Shown here one piece after another: positions 49,061 through 59,079 of a DNA stretch of 59,079 bases. The stretch spans positions 1 to 59,079 of the forward strand of contig JALVTF010000004.1 of the NCBI GenBank assembly GCA_027024145.1, in the 5' to 3' direction. The position numbers and the translations under genes are program-made. Source of the stretch: Campylobacterales bacterium. Lineage in GTDB: Bacteria; Campylobacterota; Campylobacteria; Campylobacterales; Nitratiruptoraceae. How positions within the stretch are numbered: the first letter of the stretch is position 1; each line of letters starts with the position of its first letter. Below the pieces are notes generated by a model, which searched no databases, had not been told where the DNA came from, and saw only the letters and a list, made by a program, of their open reading frames with translations.

Positions 49061-49083
49061 GTAAAAAAAACATGGAGCATGCC

Positions 49084-51174
49084 ATGAGGGACCCTACGGC
49101 TTCACTCTCCATTCCCAACCTTCCCGAAGAGCTTACGGGGCTGCAAGAAATAGCACTCAATCTCTGGTGGACCTGGCATCCCAGAGCCCAAGAGCTCTTC
49201 GCATCCATAAACCCCTATCTATGGAAAGAATGTATCCACAATCCCATCAAAATGCTGCGCATGCTCAGCAAGGAAGAGTTCGCCAAACTTCTCAATAACA
49301 GCGATTTCATGCATGAATACAACTATGTCTATACTCTCTTTCGCCACTATATCGAAGATGCTGAGTGCACTCACTCTCCCACCATCGCCTATTTTTGCGC
49401 AGAATACGGTTTACACAGATCCTTGCCTATCTATTCGGGGGGACTGGGGTTTTTGGCCGGAGATATCCTCAAAGAGGCCAGCGATATGCACCTATCTATG
49501 GTGGGGATCGGCTTCATGTATCCGGGCGGCTACGTGCATCAGGTCATCACGAGCGACGGGCTCCAAAAAGGAGAGAACGAAACTATCAAAAAGGACGAAG
49601 CTCCCATCGAACGTGTGATAGATAAAGATGGTAACCATCTCATCCTCCAGGTCCCTCTCATCGATCCACCGGTTTTTGTGAGCGTGTGGCGCGTCAACGT
49701 AGGACGCATCAAGCTCTATCTCCTCGATACCGATATCGAACAAAACGATCCATGGGATAGAATGATCAGCTACAGACTCTACACCTCCGACATGCACCAG
49801 CGCCTGCGCCAACAGATAGTCTTGGGCATCGGTGGATCGGCCCTGCTTGAACATCTCGGCATCGACTATGCGCTGCTTCATCTCAACGAAGGCCACCCCG
49901 CTTTCGCGCTTTTCGAGCGCCTACGCCACTTCATGCAGCACGGAAAGCTCTCCTATGAAGATGCGCTGCAAAAAGTGCAAGAGACTTCCATCTTCACCAC
50001 CCATACACCGCTACTGGCCGCGACGGATGTCTATGGATTCGATATGGTAGGCCACTATTTCACCGATTTTGCCAAAAATCTCGGCATCGATATGCATAGA
50101 CTCCTCTCTCTCGGTGTCGATCCCCAAAACCCGGCAGCGGGATTCAATATGACTGCTCTTGCCATGCGCATGTGCAACTACAAAAACGCCGTGAGCCAAA
50201 AGCACCAAAAGACCGCCACGCAGATGTGGCGTCCCATCTTGCAAGAGACCCATTCCCGTATCGAAGCTATCACCAATGGCGTGCACTTAGGCACCTGGAT
50301 TGACGGGACATTGCAAAAAGAGCTCGACAAGACCTTAGGAGGGGATTGGGAGATATACGAAGATGACGAGAAGATGTGGTATAAATGCGAGACTATCGAT
50401 GCCAGGCTCTTGTGGCAGCTGCACCAAAAGAACAAATATGATCTCTTCAACTTCATCCTCGAAAAACTGCGTCATAAATGGACCAGCGGCCATGCCGATC
50501 CAGCAGTGATGCTTGCCGAAGGCGCCCTGCTCGATCCCGAAGTGCTCACCATCGGTTTTGCCAGGCGTATGACCGAATACAAGCGTCCCGATTTGATCCT
50601 CCATGACCTGGTGCGCCTCGAAAAGATCCTCACCAATCCCTACTACCCGGTCCAGATCATCTTTGCAGGCAAGGCACATCCGGCAGACCTGCCCGGCCAA
50701 CGAATCATCCAGCACATCTTCGGCGTGGCCAAAAATCCACGGTTTCAGGGACGCATAGCCTTCGTGGAAGACTATGGCGAAGAGCTGGCCAAATATATGG
50801 TGCGCGGCTGCGACGTATGGCTCAATAACCCCAAAATTCCTCTCGAAGCCTGCGGCACCAGCGGGATGAAGGCCTCCGTAAACGGCGTACTCCACTGCTC
50901 CACGATGGATGGGTGGTGGCCCGAAGGCTACAACGGCAAAAACGGCTGGAGATTCGGCGGCGATGTGAGTGATGACGCCAAGGATGCAGCCGAACTGTAC
51001 GATCTTTTGGAGCAGCAGATTATCCCACTCTACTACACACGTGATGAAGACGGCATCCCGCACGGGTGGGTGGAGATGATGCGCCAAGCCATCAAAAGCG
51101 TGGCACCGAAGTTCAGCGCGCGGCGCATGATGAAAGAGTACAAAGAGAAATTTTACGATCACATAAAGGAGTGA
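49084..51174 (+). CDS. glgP: Alpha-glucan phosphorylase (GT35, short type)
   Basis: Releases glucose 1-phosphate from storage glucan using phosphate and pyridoxal phosphate (PLP). The 696 residues show an N-terminal DUF3417-like part (LQEIALNLWWTWHP), [44 protein letters not shown], the phosphate-binding RRMTEYKRP, and the PLP site GTSGMKASVNG with Lys596. It belongs to the TIGR02094-like group and not to the classical E. coli type. ATG 49084 fits the GGAG at 49075-49078; the upstream ATG 49072 would be nearly leaderless. pgm begins 1 base after the stop. Confidence 0.93.
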   Translation: MRDPTASLSIPNLPEELTGLQEIALNLWWTWHPRAQELFASINPYLWKECIHNPIKMLRMLSKEEFAKLLNNSDFMHEYNYVYTLFRHYIEDAECTHSPTIAYFCAEYGLHRSLPIYSGGLGFLAGDILKEASDMHLSMVGIGFMYPGGYVHQVITSDGLQKGENETIKKDEAPIERVIDKDGNHLILQVPLIDPPVFVSVWRVNVGRIKLYLLDTDIEQNDPWDRMISYRLYTSDMHQRLRQQIVLGIGGSALLEHLGIDYALLHLNEGHPAFALFERLRHFMQHGKLSYEDALQKVQETSIFTTHTPLLAATDVYGFDMVGHYFTDFAKNLGIDMHRLLSLGVDPQNPAAGFNMTALAMRMCNYKNAVSQKHQKTATQMWRPILQETHSRIEAITNGVHLGTWIDGTLQKELDKTLGGDWEIYEDDEKMWYKCETIDARLLWQLHQKNKYDLFNFILEKLRHKWTSGHADPAVMLAEGALLDPEVLTIGFARRMTEYKRPDLILHDLVRLEKILTNPYYPVQIIFAGKAHPADLPGQRIIQHIFGVAKNPRFQGRIAFVEDYGEELAKYMVRGCDVWLNNPKIPLEACGTSGMKASVNGVLHCSTMDGWWPEGYNGKNGWRFGGDVSDDAKDAAELYDLLEQQIIPLYYTRDEDGIPHGWVEMMRQAIKSVAPKFSARRMMKEYKEKFYDHIKE

Positions 51175-51175
51175 G

Positions 51176-52771
51176 ATGGCAGAGCTACAACCCGGAACAT
51201 TGGCACCAAAAGAGATGCTCATCGATGTGGCCAAGCTCGTGGGAGAGTATTTTTATTTCACCAGCGATCTCGCTCCTATCAAGTTTGGCACCAGTGGCCA
51301 TCGCGGCAGTGCCGCAAAACGCAGCTTCAATGGAAAGCACATTTTTGCTATCAGCCAAGCGATCTGTGCATACAAAAAAGAGCACGCTATTACAGGTCCA
51401 CTCTATATCGGCATCGACACGCATGCACTGAGTCTGCCAGCGAAGATGAGTGCTCTACGCATCTTCGCAGCCAACGAGATCCCCATATATCATACAAAAG
51501 AGCGCACCCCCACGCCGCTGGTCTCTTTCGCGATCCTCGAGCACAACAAAAAAAGCACGCAGACAGCCGACGGCATCGTGCTCACCCCTTCGCACAATCC
51601 TCCAGAAGACGGAGGCTACAAGTACAATCCTCCCAATGGCGGCCCGGCCGAAACCTCGGTCACCAAAGAGATAGAGCAAAAGGCGAACGAACTGCTAAGA
51701 AACGACTCCTTCACGACAGTTTCCTACGATGAAGCGCTGCGAAGCGAGCATGTGCATGAACACGATTTCATCACGCCTTATGTGGAAGCTTTGGAGAGCA
51801 TCGTGGATATGGAGTCTATCAAAAAAAGCGGCCTGAAACTCGCCGCCGATCCTTTAGGAGGTTCCGCCATCGGCGTCTATAAAAAGATCAAAGAGATCTA
51901 CGGTCTGGATATCGCCATACTGCACGACTATGTGGACTACACATTCTCTTTCATGCCCCTCGATCATGACGGCAAGATCCGCATGGACTGCTCGAGCCCC
52001 TATGCGATGGCATCTTTGGTGGAAAATGCCAAAACCTACGACTTAGCCTGGGCCAACGACACGGATAGCGATCGCCACGGCATCGTCACCCCGTATGGGG
52101 GACTCATGAATCCCAACCACTTCTTAGCCGTAGCAGTCTGGTACCTCTTTCGCCATCGCCAATGGCCAAAAGAGCTCAAAATCGGCAAGACCTTTGTCAC
52201 CAGCTCCATGATCGATCGCATTGCCCAGGCTCTGGGCATAGAGGTCTATGAAACGCCCGTGGGTTTCAAATGGTTCGCCGAAGGGCTCTACGAAGGATGG
52301 CTCGCATTTGCTGGCGAAGAGAGCGCTGGAGCCAGCTTTTTGCGCAAAGACGCGAGCGTCTGGACTACGGACAAGGACGGCATAGTGATGGGACTTTTGG
52401 CTGCTGAGATCGCCGCCAAGGAGGAAGACCCGGCCAAAATCTACGAAAAATTAGAAGAGCGTTTTGGCAAGAGCTACTACCGGCGCCTCGATATCCCGGC
52501 AAATGAGGAGATACGCACGAAACTGCGCACCATCACGCCAGAGAAAATCGCGACCACCACGCTGGCAGGAGAGAAGATCGAGCGCATCTTCACCCACATC
52601 GGCGACACACCTCTTGGGGGCATCAAAATCGTCACCGCCAACGGATGGGTGGCTATGCGCCCTTCCGGTACGGAAGATATCTATAAAATCTATGCGGAGA
52701 GTTTTCTCTCTTTCAAGCACTTAGCACAGCTCCAACAAGAAGCACAAAATATCGTAAAGGCTTTGATATGA
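51176..52771 (+). CDS. pgm: Phosphoglucomutase (alpha-D-glucose phosphate-specific)
   Basis: Interconverts glucose 1-phosphate and glucose 6-phosphate. The 531 residues show FGTSGHRGSAAKRSF, the phosphoserine loop LTPSHNPPEDGGYKYN (Ser139), the metal loop NDTDSDRHG, the sugar-binding loop GEESAGASF and the C-terminal phosphate site MRPSGTEDIYK. Length and motifs match E. coli Pgm (546). It takes the glucose 1-phosphate made by GlgP to glucose 6-phosphate for Pgi, the next gene. The stop overlaps the pgi start by 4 bases. Confidence 0.95.
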   Translation: MAELQPGTLAPKEMLIDVAKLVGEYFYFTSDLAPIKFGTSGHRGSAAKRSFNGKHIFAISQAICAYKKEHAITGPLYIGIDTHALSLPAKMSALRIFAANEIPIYHTKERTPTPLVSFAILEHNKKSTQTADGIVLTPSHNPPEDGGYKYNPPNGGPAETSVTKEIEQKANELLRNDSFTTVSYDEALRSEHVHEHDFITPYVEALESIVDMESIKKSGLKLAADPLGGSAIGVYKKIKEIYGLDIAILHDYVDYTFSFMPLDHDGKIRMDCSSPYAMASLVENAKTYDLAWANDTDSDRHGIVTPYGGLMNPNHFLAVAVWYLFRHRQWPKELKIGKTFVTSSMIDRIAQALGIEVYETPVGFKWFAEGLYEGWLAFAGEESAGASFLRKDASVWTTDKDGIVMGLLAAEIAAKEEDPAKIYEKLEERFGKSYYRRLDIPANEEIRTKLRTITPEKIATTTLAGEKIERIFTHIGDTPLGGIKIVTANGWVAMRPSGTEDIYKIYAESFLSFKHLAQLQQEAQNIVKALI

Positions 52772-54009
52772 TAGAATATGAACTCCATCTCCCCCTCACA
52801 CTCGATAGCGATATACGCAATCTCATGGCCAATGCCTACGGAGCGCTGCTGCATGAAAAGGAGCGCGGCGTCACAGGTTACTACACCCTCCCCGAAGAGT
52901 CTATGCTCTTGGTGCAAGAGCTCATAAACGAACACACTTTCGCACCCTTTGATGCCATCGCACTCTATGGCATAGGAGGTTCCTCTCTGGGCACCAAAGC
53001 CATCGACGCGGCCTTGCGTCCTATCCGCCAGGCCAAAAATATCGTCTACTTCGAAAACCCCGATCCTCGCACGATAGAATCCAACTACCGCAAACTCGCC
53101 GGCAAAGAGGTGCTCCATGTCGTCATCTCCAAATCGGGACGCACCATCGAAACCCTCTCACAGTTCAAAGCCTCCTTGGCATATTTCGGACTCGATCCCA
53201 AAAAGGATGCCAAACGCCTCGCCGTCATCAGCGATGTGGATTCGCAGCTACACAGATTCGCCGAGGAGTTTGGTATCAAGAGTTTCGCCATCCCCCACAA
53301 CGTGGGCGGACGCTTCTCGGTGCTCAGCGCGGTGGGTATCGTCCCGCTCACCCTCGCTGGCTACGACACGGCAGCGATCCTCATGGCTGCACAGGAGATG
53401 ATGGAGCGTTTTTGGGCGATGCACGAAGAGCATATCTTGCAAAAGGCGGTCTTTATCGCGCGCAACTGGCATCGCTATCCCATGAACGTGCTCTTTTCCT
53501 ATGCGGATAGCCTGGAGAATTTCAACAAATGGTACGTCCAGCTCTGGGGAGAATCTCTGGGCAAGATCGATCGTACGGGCCAACGCGTAGGTCCCACGCC
53601 GATCGGTCATATCGGGGCTGTGGATCAGCACTCCTTTTTACAGCTTTTGATGCAAGGACCGAAGGACAAAACGGTCACCTTCATCAAAGTCGAAGATTTC
53701 GGTATGGATGCAAAGATCCCGGATCTGAAGCTTCCTTATCTTACAAGCAGCGATTTCGTCAACGACGTAAGCTTCGCCACACTCATCGACGCCGAGTGCG
53801 ACGCTACCAAAGATGCGCTCTTGCACGAAGGCGTGCCGGTGGACATCATCACGCTCCCGAGACTCGACGAAGCGGCATTGGGTGAGCTCGTCGTCTACTA
53901 CGAACTGCTCACCTCCGCCGTGGGAGCGCTCTTGGAGATCGACACCTACGACCAGCCGGGCGTGGAGCTTGGCAAAAAGATCTTGCGCGAAAGGTTTGCA
54001 GATGCGTAA
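52768..54009 (+). CDS. pgi: Glucose-6-phosphate isomerase
   Basis: Interconverts glucose 6-phosphate and fructose 6-phosphate. The 413 residues show the N-terminal SIS domain with YGIGGSSLGTKA, VISKSGRTIET, VGGRFSVLSAVG, WYVQLWGESLGK with catalytic Glu, and a conserved VGPTPIGHIGAVDQHSFLQLL segment. The protein is in the shorter bacterial/thermophile class (about 410-450) and not the 550-residue E. coli type. It overlaps pgm by 4 and the next gene by 8 bases. It completes GlgP-Pgm-Pgi-PfkA from glucan to fructose 1,6-bisphosphate within the window. Confidence 0.94.
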   Translation: MIEYELHLPLTLDSDIRNLMANAYGALLHEKERGVTGYYTLPEESMLLVQELINEHTFAPFDAIALYGIGGSSLGTKAIDAALRPIRQAKNIVYFENPDPRTIESNYRKLAGKEVLHVVISKSGRTIETLSQFKASLAYFGLDPKKDAKRLAVISDVDSQLHRFAEEFGIKSFAIPHNVGGRFSVLSAVGIVPLTLAGYDTAAILMAAQEMMERFWAMHEEHILQKAVFIARNWHRYPMNVLFSYADSLENFNKWYVQLWGESLGKIDRTGQRVGPTPIGHIGAVDQHSFLQLLMQGPKDKTVTFIKVEDFGMDAKIPDLKLPYLTSSDFVNDVSFATLIDAECDATKDALLHEGVPVDIITLPRLDEAALGELVVYYELLTSAVGALLEIDTYDQPGVELGKKILRERFADA

Positions 54010-55687
54010 ACTTTTCCACTACCCTATCGATCCGCGCTACTCCACCTACACTGCATACTTTTCCATGGAGTTCGCTATCGACCAGGCCCTCAAGACCTAT
54101 TCGGGCGGGCTCGGGTTCTTGGCGGGTTCGCACATGCGCAGTGCCTGCGATATGCGCCAAAAGACGATAGGTGTGGGGATTTTGTGGAGCTACGGCTACT
54201 ACGACCAGTCTCGCTATGAAGATAACAGACTCAAAGTGGAGTTTCGCAGGAAGTTCTACTACTTCATCGAAGATACGGGCATCGTCGTGGAAGTGACCAT
54301 CAACGGCAAACCGGTCAAGGTCAAGGCCTACTTGCTACCGGGCGAAGTCTTTGGCACAGCGCCTGTGCTGCTGCTTACTACCGATATCTTCGAAAACGAC
54401 TATCTGAGCCAAACCATCACGCACCGCCTCTACGACGCCAACGAAGAGACGCGCATCGCGCAAGAGATAGTGCTGGGCATCGGTGGGATGAAAGTTTTGC
54501 AAGTTTTAGACGAAAAGATGGATATCTTCCATCTCAACGAAGGGCATGCGCTGCCGCTGGCATTCGAACTGCTGCGTCACTACCGAGACGTAGAAGAGGT
54601 GCGCAAACGTGTGGTTTTTACCACCCATACACCGGAGATGGCTGGCAACGAAGAGCACGATATCCATCTGTTGGAGCGCATGGGATTTTTCGCGGGGCTC
54701 GATGCTGCCACCGTCCAAGAAAAGCTACATTACCATACCCAAAGCTTCTCCCTCACTGTAGGGGCGCTCAAACTCTCCAAACGTGCCAATGCCGTCTCGA
54801 AAATCCACGAAAAAGTCTCCAATGCAATGTGGGCAGAGGTGCCAGATCGCTGCGAAATCATCAGCATCACCAATGCACAAAACATGAACTACTGGGCAGA
54901 CAAGCAGCTGCTCAGCGCCATGCAAGAGCACGAGGACTATCGCCTCCAGGGACGCAAGAAACATCTCAAGCACAAACTCTTCGAAGAGGTGGCCGACCAA
55001 ACGGGCAAGCTCTTTGATCCCGAGGTGTGCACCCTCGTGTGGGCGCGACGCTTCGCCGAGTACAAACGTCCTAAGCTCTTAGTGCGCGATATGGAGCGCT
55101 TCCGCGAGCTCGTGGCGAACAGAGAGTATCCCATCCAGATCATCTGGGCCGGAAAACCCTACCCCCTCGATACCAATGCCGTGGAAATGTTCAACGATTT
55201 GGTGATGCTCAGCAAAGAGTTCAAAAATGTCGCTGTGCTCACAGGCTATGAGCTGCGACTCTCGAAACTGCTCAAACAAGGCAGCGACCTATGGCTCAAC
55301 ACCCCACGCTGGGGCAGAGAAGCCAGCGGCACCAGTGGCATGAGTGCGGGGATCAACGCCAGCATCAACTTCTCTATCGACGATGGCTGGATAGCGGAGT
55401 TTGCAAAAGACGGGATCAACGCCTTCGTGATCCCCCACGCTGATCCCCACCAATCCCACGAAGCGATCGATAGCCAAGACTACGCGACCATGATGGACAA
55501 ATTCCAAAAAGAGATCTTGCCTCTGTACTACACCGATCAAAAACGGTGGCTGCAGATCGCCAAGAACGGGATGAAAGACATCTTGCACTATTTCGATAGC
55601 TCCCGAATGGTAGATGAGTACTACCGAAAACTCTACGACTATCATCCTGTAAGAAGCCAAAAAACACACAAAAGGTGGATGAGATGA
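54002..55687 (+). CDS. Phosphorylase-like GT35 paralogue lacking the PLP lysine
   Basis: A 561-residue paralogue of the GlgP two genes upstream. It aligns through [63 protein letters not shown] and IIWAGKPYP, and lacks the first 90 residues of GlgP. At the PLP site it reads [13 protein letters not shown], where GlgP reads GTSGMKASVNG. The PLP lysine is therefore Ser448. Without PLP it cannot be a normal phosphorylase; it could be a nucleotide-sugar glucan synthase or a non-catalytic binding partner. ATG 54002 overlaps the pgi stop by 8 bases; extension further up is inside pgi. The 3' end overlaps the nucleotidyltransferase start by 4 bases. Confidence 0.85.
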
Positions 55688-58209
55688 AAAAGATAAAAGC
55701 GGTCATCATGGCGGGAGGTTTCGGCACCCGCATCCAACCTCTCACACACTCGCTACCCAAGCCGATGCTGCCAGTGGTCAATGTCCCGATGATGGAAAAC
55801 GTCCTCAAGCAGCTGGTGAAGGTGGGCATCGACGAGGTGGTGATACTGCTCTATTACAAGCCGCAGATCATCAAGAATCACTTCCAAGATGGATCCAAAT
55901 GGGGTGTCAAGATACACTATGTGCTCCCCGATGCAGACTACGGTACAGCAGGTGCCGTGGGGGTGGCCAGAGAGTAACTTGACACCACATTTATGATCGT
56001 CAGCGGTGATTTGGTGACCGATTTCGATTTTGCCAAAATTTTGGCTTACCATGAGCGCAAGAACTCCAAACTCACCATCACCCTCACCTCGGTGGAAAAT
56101 CCTTTGCAGTTTGGCGTGGTGATCGTAAATGATGAGGGCAAGATCGAGAAGTTTTTGGAAAAACCGAGCTGGGGCGAGGTCTTTAGCGACACCATCAATA
56201 CCGGCATCTACGTGATCGAACCGGAGATTTTGGATTTTATCCCCCCTGGTGAGCAGTTCGATTTTGCCAAAGATCTCTTCCCGCTTCTGATGGAAAAGGG
56301 GATAGATCTCATGGGCTACACGGCGCAAGGCTACTGGCGCGATGTGGGCAATCCGGAGAGCTATCGCGAGGTGCATCGCGATCTATTTATGCAAAAGGTG
56401 CGCTTCGACATCCCCGGTACTGTGATAGAGTATCCAGAAGGCGTGCTCTATCTCCAGGGCAATAGCACTATCCCTGAGAGTGTGGAGATCATCGATACCG
56501 TCGTCATCGGTGACAATGTCACCATAGGAGAAAACTGCAGACTTCACAACGTAAGCATCAAAGACAACGTCACTATAGGCGAGGAGTGCCGCCTGCGCAA
56601 CAGTGTGCTGTGGAGCGACATTCGCATAGGCAAAAAATGCTTCTTCGACAATGCCGTCATCTGCAACGACAACGAAATAGGCGACATGGTCACAGCCAAA
56701 GCGGGTGTGATTTTGGCTGAAGGGTGTCGGGTGGGAAAATTCGTCACCTTCGATCAAGACGTCACCGTGTGGCCAAACAAGGAGATCGAACCCGCTGCCA
56801 TCGTCACCAACAACGTGGTCTGGGGAACGAAGTACAAAAACGCCATCTTCGAAGAGGGGATCATTCGCGGCAAGGCCAATATCGAAATCGGCTGCGAAAT
56901 GTCGTGTAAAATCGCAGAGGCTTACGCTTCGCTGCTGCCTCCCGGAAGCACCATAACCATCGGGAGGGATTTCGAGGACTCTTCACGCATGCTCAAGCGC
57001 GCCTTCGACGGGGGTGTTTTGGCCACGGGTGTCAACATCATCGATCTCCAAGAGCTCCCGCCATCTGTGCTGCGCCAATACATCTACTCCCGCGACGATA
57101 TCCAAGGGGGTGCGTACTTTCGCAAAAGCCTCCACGATCCTTCGAGTGTGGAGATCATCCTCTACAACGACGAGGGACTGCGTCTGAGCACCGCAATGGC
57201 CAAAAACGTGGAGAAAAACTACTTCAAAGAGAGTTTTCGCAAAGTCGATTACAAGGACATGGGAAGCCTCAACGACAGTCAAGAGCTCCATCTCGATGCA
57301 TGCCGCACCTATAAACGGTCGATAGAAAAGATCATCGATCACAATATCATCCGCGGCAGCGAATTTCGCGTGGCTATTGACTTGATGTTTGGCATCACGA
57401 AGGATATCTTTCCCATAATTCTCTCCGAGATCCAGATAGAAAATATCTTGCTCAACGCCTACTACGACAAACTCAAGCTCGAAAACCTCCAGCACTATAT
57501 CAAGGTCTCAAAAGAGGAGCTTTCCAAAATCGTCACAGCCTTGGGTTTTAACCTCGGTGTCCTCATCTACCCTCACGGCCAGCGTCTCACACTGGTAGCC
57601 GATGACGGTAAAGTCCTCGACCGGGTCGATGTTCTCATCGTGGTGCTCAGGCTCATGGATATCGAAGCTGCATCCAACAACACCCGCTACAAAGTCTTCC
57701 TGCCTTCTTGGGCACCCGATATGATGGATGCAGATTTCAAACATCTCGACATCTCTCGCGGCAAGTACCAAAACTTCGCCAAAAACGAATTCAAAGAGTA
57801 CGATCTCATCGCCACCGTGGATGGCAATTTCGCCTTTACCGAGTTTTCCTACCATCGCGATGCCATCTACGCCACCCTCAAAATCATGGAGCTCCTCTCA
57901 CGCCATGGCTTGAGCCTCTCCGAGATCGAGCACGAAGTGAAGCACTTTTTTTACACCCGCTGCAAGATCGCCTGTGCCCAGCACAAAAAAGGCAAAATGA
58001 TGCGCAAATTCCTCGAATACGCCAAGGATAAACGCCACTCGAGCATCGATGGTGTCAAAATCTGGGAAAACGACACCGACTGGGTGCTCATGATACCCGA
58101 CCAATATTCCGAAAATCTCAATCTCTACATCCAGGCCAAAAACAAAGAGGAGGGGATGCAGATACACGATAAGTACAAAAATCTCATCAGCAGGTGGCTC
58201 GAAGAATGA
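55684..58209 (+). pseudogene. Sugar nucleotidyltransferase / left-handed helix / degenerate phosphomannomutase fusion, one in-frame TAA
   Basis: An 842-codon frame broken only by TAA at 55975-55977 (codon 98). Domains are: nucleotidyltransferase (1-230) with [12 protein letters not shown] and, after the stop, VSGDLVTDF and EKPSWGEV; hexapeptide left-handed helix (about 250-375, VVIGDNVTIGENC); and a phosphomannomutase-like region (about 375-841). In the last, the catalytic serine loop reads SLHDPSS and not TASHNP, and the metal loop DxDxDR reads PHGQR, so mutase activity looks lost. Cyanobacteria have similar fusions of nearly the same length. Without the stop it should make NDP-hexose. A restart at ATG 55993 would lack the nucleotide loop. 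It overlaps the GH57 start by 4 bases. Confidence 0.8.
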
Positions 58210-59079
58210 ACGTAGCGATTCTGTGGCATATGCATCAGCCTGATTACCGGGACAATGACGGCTACTTTCGCATGCCATGGACCTTTTTGCACGCTATCAA
58301 AGACTACTACGATATGCCGCATATCGCCTCACTCTTCGATGTCAAGGTCACCTTCAACATCACACCCATCCTCATGGAACAGCTCCAAGACTACATCCGC
58401 CACGGCTACCGCAAAGACATCTATCTCTCCCTTTTGGCAAAACCCGTTGCCGAGCTGCAACAAGAGCAAAAAGAGCGCCTCTTGCAGCTGTGCAAAACGG
58501 CACGCTTCGCGACGATGGTGGCTCCCTATCCCCGCTTTGTGGAGCTCTATCACAAAGGCAGTCTCGATGATCAGGAGTTTTTAGATGTAGAGGTGTGGTT
58601 TTTGCACTCGTGGAGCGGCAACTATCTCAAAAGCAGCGATCCGCTCATCAAGGAGCTCTTGCAAAAAACGAGTTTCACGCACGAAGAGAAGATCGCCCTG
58701 CTCGATCGTCTTGTGGCGTTTTTGCCTAAAATCTTGCCGCTCTATGCATCCTTGCAGCGTCAAGGTCGCATCGCTCTAAGCACCACACCCTACACCCATC
58801 CCATCTTGCCGCTGCTGCTCGATATCCATGTAGCCAAAGAGGCCAATCCCGCCACCACGCTTCCGCAAGACAGCGTTTCCTTGCAAGAAGATGCCAAGCT
58901 CCATATCCAAAAAGCCATCACCCTCTACCAAGAGCACTTTGGCAGCTCCCCGCGCGGGATGTGGCCGGCCGAAGGTGCCGTGGACGAAGCGAGCCTTGCC
59001 CTTTACAAAGAGGCCGGCATACGCTGGATAGCCACAGATGAGGCGATCTTGCGAAAAAGCGGCGAAACCGATCCCTACC
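58206..59079 (+). CDS. Glycoside hydrolase family 57 protein, 3' truncated by window end
   Basis: N-terminal 291 residues of a GH57 enzyme, a family of alpha-glucan hydrolases, branching enzymes and glucanotransferases. Visible are the first family motif HMHQPDY right after the start, TTPYTHPILPLL, and MWPAEGAVDE followed by RWIATDEAIL. The latter two contain the candidate nucleophile glutamate and acid/base aspartate. The frame stays open to the window edge. ATG 58206 overlaps the preceding stop (ATGA). No signal peptide, so it acts in the cytosol. In this operon it likely trims, branches or transfers storage glucan; the precise activity needs the missing part. Confidence 0.88.
   Translation, partial: MNVAILWHMHQPDYRDNDGYFRMPWTFLHAIKDYYDMPHIASLFDVKVTFNITPILMEQLQDYIRHGYRKDIYLSLLAKPVAELQQEQKERLLQLCKTARFATMVAPYPRFVELYHKGSLDDQEFLDVEVWFLHSWSGNYLKSSDPLIKELLQKTSFTHEEKIALLDRLVAFLPKILPLYASLQRQGRIALSTTPYTHPILPLLLDIHVAKEANPATTLPQDSVSLQEDAKLHIQKAITLYQEHFGSSPRGMWPAEGAVDEASLALYKEAGIRWIATDEAILRKSGETDPY

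Follow-up and report, generated by a model that had tools for sequence, protein, structure and literature searches.

Phosphorylases of glycosyltransferase family 35 (GT35), grouped here by the profiles TIGR02094 and TIGR02093, hold pyridoxal phosphate (PLP) on a lysine residue within the motif GTSG[MQE]K. Two further families offer points of comparison, namely the GT5 glycogen synthases (GlgA), which have the GT-B fold, and the GT4 trehalose phosphorylases, which are PLP-free. The PLP lysine of the TIGR02093 enzyme MalP is given as K646 (PMC11046441), and the GT4 trehalose phosphorylases are described as retaining enzymes with a front-face mechanism (PMC8950772). Here we describe a GT35 protein that carries a serine in place of the cofactor lysine. 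It is encoded at positions 54,002 to 55,687 of the forward strand of contig JALVTF010000004.1 (assembly GCA_027024145.1), a stretch of 59,079 nucleotides from a Campylobacterales bacterium of the Nitratiruptoraceae that was analyzed as a whole and is referred to below as the window. The protein belongs to a branch of GT35, spread over several phyla, in which the lysine is missing from every readable member. Judging from its residues, this branch, labeled as phosphorylases in databases, probably works in a different way. We tentatively suggest, at a probability of about 0.42, that its members are active GT-B enzymes of glucosyl transfer on glycogen that do without the PLP lysine and accommodate a nucleotide in the vacated cofactor site.

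A GT35 protein with serine at the PLP-lysine position

The coding sequence is an open frame from ATG to TGA that specifies 561 amino acids (P0001). We place its start at the ATG at 54,002, where homologs begin; the list of open reading frames (ORFs) offers a longer frame from 53,813. The protein scores 418 bits with TIGR02094 (cut-off 191.7) and 49.9 bits with PF00343 (cut-off 27), in agreement with the original prediction, made from the letters of the window, that it is a genuine paralog within this family lacking the PLP lysine. With TIGR02095, the glgA profile of GT5, it reaches 35.7 bits against a cut-off of 328.45. Its predicted structure (mean predicted local distance difference test, pLDDT, 90.5; predicted template modeling score, pTM, 0.89; from 43 aligned sequences) is most similar in Foldseek to the glycogen phosphorylase of Segatella copri, with an E-value of 1e-43, a template modeling (TM) score of 0.89 on the query and 28% identity. 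Maltodextrin and glycogen phosphorylases follow, and the best 50 of the 424 matches at E ≤0.001 are all phosphorylases. The nearest PDB sequence is of the lysine type (GTSGEK in the alignment), and no lysine-free protein was seen among the PDB sequence and Foldseek matches listed.

The window protein thus shares its fold, the EASGTSG frame and the glucose- and phosphate-site residues with the lysine-type TIGR02094 phosphorylases (for example that of S. copri, PDB 9l6i, 20yr) but differs from them at the lysine position and is ≈30 to 39% identical over longer pieces. Most of the TIGR02094 proteins fetched are ≈700 to 900 amino acids long, but lysine-type members of 564 amino acids exist, so length is no marker of the lysine-free group. 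The TIGR02093 phosphorylases, such as Escherichia coli MalP and GlgP, belong to the same GT35 fold family and have active-site residues in common with the window protein, but they show 15 to 18% identity in structural matches and bear the PLP lysine.

Ser448, encoded by AGT at 55,343 to 55,345, closes the motif EASGTSGM-S (residues 440 to 448; 55,319 to 55,345) and stands at the place of Lys596 in the GlgP encoded upstream (EACGTSGMKAS). This codon and both motifs are as the original prediction described them within one operon, and its description of an otherwise well-kept GT-B active-site frame holds too, with GTSGM and the other motifs it names all present. Residues E440 to M447 are invariant in both alignments of relatives (21 and 43 rows). 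The FHLNEGHA region lies at residues 176 to 183 (54,527 to 54,550; HLNEGHA at 177 to 183), and the RRFAEYKRP motif, which includes Arg349, Arg350, Tyr354 and Lys355, lies at 55,046 to 55,072. We take the latter to bind phosphate, after glycogen phosphorylase; its Arg350 and Lys355 are common to lysine-type GT35 and GT5. The segment from 55,244 to 55,276 specifies Gly415-Tyr416-Glu417 and then a helix (418 to 427 in the model) with Ser421 and Lys425. Positions 415, 417, 421 and 425 are unlike those of lysine-type members in the alignment.

The lysine is absent throughout a multi-phylum clade

Among 199 distinct GT35 sequences, the motif residue is threonine in 101, serine in 29, alanine in two and lysine in 67, and every readable member of the branch that contains the window protein has Thr, Ser or Ala (132/132). 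The same picture emerges from a genome collection with at least 590 matching loci. In the 80 most query-like of these, from Campylobacterota, Bacteroidota, Verrucomicrobia and Halopseudomonas, the motif could be read in 79 (locus L047 ends ahead of it) and is Thr in 69, Ser in 10 and Lys in none. Also matched were one metagenome-assembled genome (MAG) labeled Beijerinckiaceae and two labeled Sphingomonadales; these labels may be misassigned, because those included in our first tree group with Bacteroidota. Within Campylobacterota, close relatives were found in 26 of 60 genomes, the window's own included, and all 25 with a readable motif have S, T or A (the motif is cut off in G022). Because Thr is usual in the clade and two members have Ala, its defining trait is the loss of Lys and not the gain of Ser, contrary to the Ser-specific change that had been predicted.

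Plasmids also carry the gene, with Thr, in Runella rosea and Pontibacter actiniarum (L033, L034). As a separate observation, short lysine-type GT35 genes occur on two other plasmids. In that of Simkania negevensis (L236), the gene lies alongside genes for metal efflux and mercury reductase; in one of Methylophaga (L237), it adjoins a DUF1622 gene, as in Pontibacter.

In a tree of 110 sequences built after masking the motif residue (67 of the 132 T/S/A sequences, 36 of 60 lysine-type TIGR02094 and all seven TIGR02093, with four Verrucomicrobia rows), the T/S/A set forms one side of a branch with a Shimodaira-Hasegawa-like approximate likelihood ratio test (SH-aLRT) value of 100. A first tree of 99 rows, which kept the motif column and held no Verrucomicrobia, gave the same split on a stem 1.53 changes per site long. 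The window protein, with EASGTSGM followed by one of the three residues, falls within this supported clade, which spans Campylobacterota, Bacteroidota, Verrucomicrobia and Halopseudomonas. The alignment and tree proposed at the outset as a check therefore yielded one clade and, among the 132, none of the lysine-bearing members that had been named in advance as evidence against the prediction.

The clade is under strong purifying selection. The ratio of nonsynonymous to synonymous rates (dN/dS) is 0.02 to 0.08 in the nine of 28 pairs with a computable dS, drawn from the window and seven genomes of the genus; the other pairs were saturated. A local mutation, decay or assembly error could be imagined, given that the following gene is split in the window assembly, but these dN/dS values, the T or S in 79/79 readable nearest loci and the missing Lys in all readable clade members rule this out, and the judgment of the original prediction that the gene is not decaying is upheld.

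Conserved and altered residues in the active site

Both lysine-type subfamilies have 57 residues in common (≥85% in each). Forty of these are kept in the clade and 17 are lost, the latter figure including gradual differences. We assume that the kept frame has glucose- and phosphate-binding roles, as in phosphorylases, and on sequence the window protein retains what is expected of a GT35 member in this respect. E440, H209, R350 and K355 are invariant over 43 sequences. Ten of the kept residues, E23, G35, G36, H209, N291, R350, K355, Y416, E440 and G443, also occur in GT5 glycogen synthases, from which the window protein is otherwise set apart by a score far under the glgA cut-off. Lost along with the lysine is, among others, an alanine replaced by Ser421, a position that presumably lies near the cofactor in phosphorylase.

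The 57 clade sequences and 35 lysine-type TIGR02094 sequences are fixed differently at 38 columns, including S43 (Asp in 35/35 lysine-type sequences), Q293, W347, P386, G415, E417, S421, K425 and R439. Gly415 and Glu417 are specific to the clade; five of the six GT5 sequences shown have Gly-Tyr at this place, and the sixth has Gly-Phe or similar. The lysine position itself is Tyr or Ile in 18 GT5 rows, and we take its counterpart in other GT-B enzymes to be next to the nucleotide. With a GT5 profile built from 25 sequences, mostly Campylobacterota GlgA, the clade has a median score of 24.0 bits (8.6 to 48.3; 57 sequences), compared with 8.7 bits (−2.2 to 22.1; 35 sequences) for lysine-type TIGR02094 and −1.7 for TIGR02093. 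Similarly, TIGR02095 matches the window protein with an E-value of 4e-9 and the neighboring GlgP with one of 5e-4.

Co-occurrence with glycogen genes

Across the genomes sampled, the gene follows glycogen genes; the counts below ignore the relatedness of the genomes. In Campylobacterota, GlgA is over its cut-off in 25 of 26 carriers and in four of 34 non-carriers. Fourteen of these carriers also have a lysine-type GT35, and 12 have the lysine-free protein only. The fourteen include G016, in which the matches are short and spread over several frames. Some MAGs are incomplete (G022 at 83%, G044 at 88%), and in G009 the contig begins at the lysine-free gene, so that an upstream GlgP could be lost from the assembly.

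Nineteen of 148 Bacteroidota genomes carry the protein, and the motif residue is T or S in all 19. Lysine-type GT35, assigned by score and not by reading each motif, occurs in none of these 19 and in 108 of the other 129, a pattern of mutual exclusion. GlgB is over its cut-off in 16 of the 19 carriers, 37 of the 108 lysine-type genomes and 12 of the 21 with neither; the difference between carriers and genomes with neither is not significant (p 0.09). In Halopseudomonas, 14 of 37 genomes are carriers (12 T, one S, one A), no lysine-type PF00343 protein was found in any of the 37, and all 14 carriers are among the 19 with GlgA (Fisher p 2e-6). In all 15 carrier genomes sampled from these groups, the lysine-free protein is the sole GT35 found with either profile. 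GlgB is over its cut-off in 26 of 33 carriers.

GlgA exceeds its cut-off in eight of the 15 sampled carriers, and two more have matches at 256 and 282 bits (cut-off 328); the remaining five showed no GlgA-like match of full length that came near the cut-off. Two of those five (G063, G068) have frames of ≈1,110 amino acids with a GH13-type match, which we guess to be TreS of the GlgE route. Several carriers also hold frames of ≈266 to 300 amino acids that match the glgA profile in its N-terminal half only (for example G063:C3:1188623-1189315). A general role as the sole glycogen synthase of its hosts is ruled out by GlgA over the cut-off in 25/26 Campylobacterota, 8/15 sampled and 14/14 Halopseudomonas carriers.

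Gene cluster around the window gene

The gene sits in a forward-strand run of glycogen and sugar-phosphate genes in the window. Sequence and profiles identify the first of these as GlgP, the lysine-type GT35 with a DUF3417 domain (49,072 to 51,174). It is followed by a phosphoglucomutase/phosphomannomutase family protein with four PGM_PMM domains (51,176 to 52,771) and by phosphoglucose isomerase (pgi; 52,768 to 54,009; PGI E-value 9e-35). The lysine-free gene overlaps both its neighbors, its ATG at 54,002 lying ahead of the pgi end at 54,009 and its stop at 55,685 to 55,687 beyond the next ATG at 55,684, as an operon would predict. Downstream lie a fusion of NTP_transferase, left-handed helix and PGM domains of the nucleotide-sugar pyrophosphorylase type (55,684 to 58,209), recognized by profiles, and a GH57 family protein that is cut by the window end (58,206 to 59,079; PF03065 E-value 1e-35). 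The fusion gene is split here into an ORF to 55,977 and an ORF at 55,993 to 58,209, whereas in G001 (L151) it is a single ORF of 841 amino acids. In the complete genome G012 (L156) it is likewise split, elsewhere in the gene.

The Campylobacterota glycogen cluster comprises GlgP, phosphoglucomutase (PGM), PGI, the lysine-free gene, the NTP_transferase-PGM fusion, two GH57 genes, a GalT-like gene, ROK, GlgA and GlgB. G001 and G003 have the full run, as does G012, where the fusion gene is split; other genomes have partial or rearranged versions, and around the lysine-free gene of some (for example G026 and G041) the cluster is absent. In Campylobacterota, the pyrophosphorylase-type fusion directly follows the lysine-free gene at nine of 31 loci that show the latter, and at seven more it is found no further than five frames on. 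Outside Campylobacterota, no conserved glycogen operon was found around the gene, and the recurrent neighbors resembled lineage synteny.

Other features of these clusters were also noted. A small AMPK1_CBM glycogen-binding protein (≈92 to 99 amino acids; for example L169:1633-1929) adjoins the nucleotidyltransferase fusion in six Campylobacterota cluster loci, one of which (L161) is without the lysine-free gene, and it was not found in the part of the window shown. The GalT-like protein at L151:14482-15498 scores 97.7 bits, just below the galT_1 cut-off of 102.1, and in L152, L155 and L160 two GlgA-type genes flank the ROK gene.

Candidate functions of the lysine-free clade

In lysine-type phosphorylases, the cofactor is, we assume, placed where other GT-B enzymes hold the nucleotide. 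With the lysine anchor gone, several nearby residues altered along with it, and the glucose- and phosphate-binding residues retained, the vacated site could take a nucleoside diphosphate (NDP), and the protein would then act at glycogen chain ends as an NDP-glucose glucosyltransferase, or run backwards with NDP. Activity, nucleotide use and reaction direction are each read from sequence and context here. Of the two roles first predicted for the protein, a different glucosyltransferase or a regulator of GlgP, the former remains the leading reading. It is favored by the single well-supported clade, the retained active-site residues, the closer match to GT5 profiles than that of lysine-type TIGR02094 members, the purifying selection and the pyrophosphorylase-type fusion gene nearby in Campylobacterota. 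Support for a nucleotide in the vacated site is also drawn from a 2024 review, which proposes that GT35 arose when, in a proto-GT35 enzyme using NDP-sugars, PLP took over from a nucleoside monophosphate (PMC11046441).

Several observations weigh against NDP-glucose chemistry. Y354, T444 and other phosphorylase-type residues that have no GT5 counterpart are kept in the clade and favor a phosphorylase-like site. In absolute bits the likeness to GT5 is weak, and some short lysine-type members come within its range (up to 22 bits), two of them reaching 29 and 26 bits with TIGR02095. Alanine in two members implies that the Thr/Ser hydroxyl is not essential. GlgA also occurs in nearly all Campylobacterota and all Halopseudomonas carriers, which would make a second NDP-glucose glucan synthase partly redundant. 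The mutual exclusion with lysine-type enzymes in Bacteroidota fits replacement of a phosphorylase better than an NDP-glucose enzyme and, together with the fact that the Halopseudomonas carriers form a subset of the genomes with GlgA, points rather to breakdown.

For this last reason it is nearly as likely that the protein is still an alpha-glucan phosphorylase, one that holds PLP without a Schiff base or uses phosphate alone, as the GT4 trehalose phosphorylases do, and that stands in many genomes in place of the classical one. In phosphorylase, the Schiff base does not serve as the catalytic group, and the protein's standing as sole GT35 in the 15 sampled carriers, the frequent presence of GlgB and the lack of any lysine-type protein in Halopseudomonas all fit such a role. 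The existence of retaining GT4 phosphorylases (PMC8950772) lends it further support; those enzymes, set beside the clade by description only, belong to another family with another substrate. A phosphorylase of this kind is harder to reconcile with the Campylobacterota carriers that hold a lysine-type enzyme as well, in the same gene run in G000, G001, G003 and G012, and with the residues near the motif that changed together with the lysine; moreover, the 12 of 21 GT35-less Bacteroidota with GlgB indicate that glycogen genes often occur where there is no phosphorylase. The NDP-glucose and phosphorylase readings differ in the occupant of the pocket.

That the PLP anchor has merely moved to another lysine, leaving an ordinary phosphorylase, seems improbable. 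One candidate is Lys425, which is invariant in the 43-row alignment and in 57 clade rows; 35 lysine-type TIGR02094 rows have V, I, T or Y there. It lies one turn beyond Ser421, whose alanine counterpart we believe to be near the cofactor, but a residue four positions past a pocket residue may face away. An inactive partner of glycogen enzymes, with a glucan-binding or regulatory role, is unlikely: loss of the cofactor-holding residue and co-location with glycogen genes would suit it, but the invariance of E440, H209, R350 and K355 would not, nor would the presence of the protein in genomes without a detected lysine-type enzyme. Regulation of GlgP in particular is unlikely as a general role, with no lysine-type protein detected in 12/26 Campylobacterota, 19/19 Bacteroidota and 14/14 Halopseudomonas carriers.

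Position of the clade relative to other GT35 proteins

A further scenario, to which we give a low probability, is that the clade is the surviving pre-PLP lineage, an NDP-sugar-dependent GT-B glucan transferase that gave rise to the phosphorylases. With GT5 as outgroup, placing the clade outside all lysine-type GT35 was 3.0 log-likelihood units worse than a later loss of the lysine, with p 0.37 against 0.63 in the approximately unbiased (AU) test, and was not rejected. A previous test with a different model had the clade-outside tree 16.3 units above a free tree from a quick search that did not come upon it. These tests compared two rootings for 22 of the 57 T/S/A rows of the first tree, 35 TIGR02094, seven TIGR02093 and 18 of the 25 GT5 sequences, with the motif column removed, and the tree program warned of long branches meeting in the GT5-rooted tree.

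Implications

Among the papers listed in literature searches, which mostly left out subscription journals, none dealt with a GT35 protein free of the PLP lysine or with its biochemistry. In public records, the lysine-free proteins are named glgP, alpha-glucan family phosphorylase. Proteins annotated in this way may not be phosphorylases, and glycogen breakdown is thus possibly misassigned in many genomes. A branch that spans several phyla without the cofactor anchor, but with the rest of the site kept, would represent either a GT35 enzyme with another donor or phosphorolysis without the PLP-lysine bond, and it opens a direct test of the proposal that GT35 descends from an NDP-sugar enzyme.

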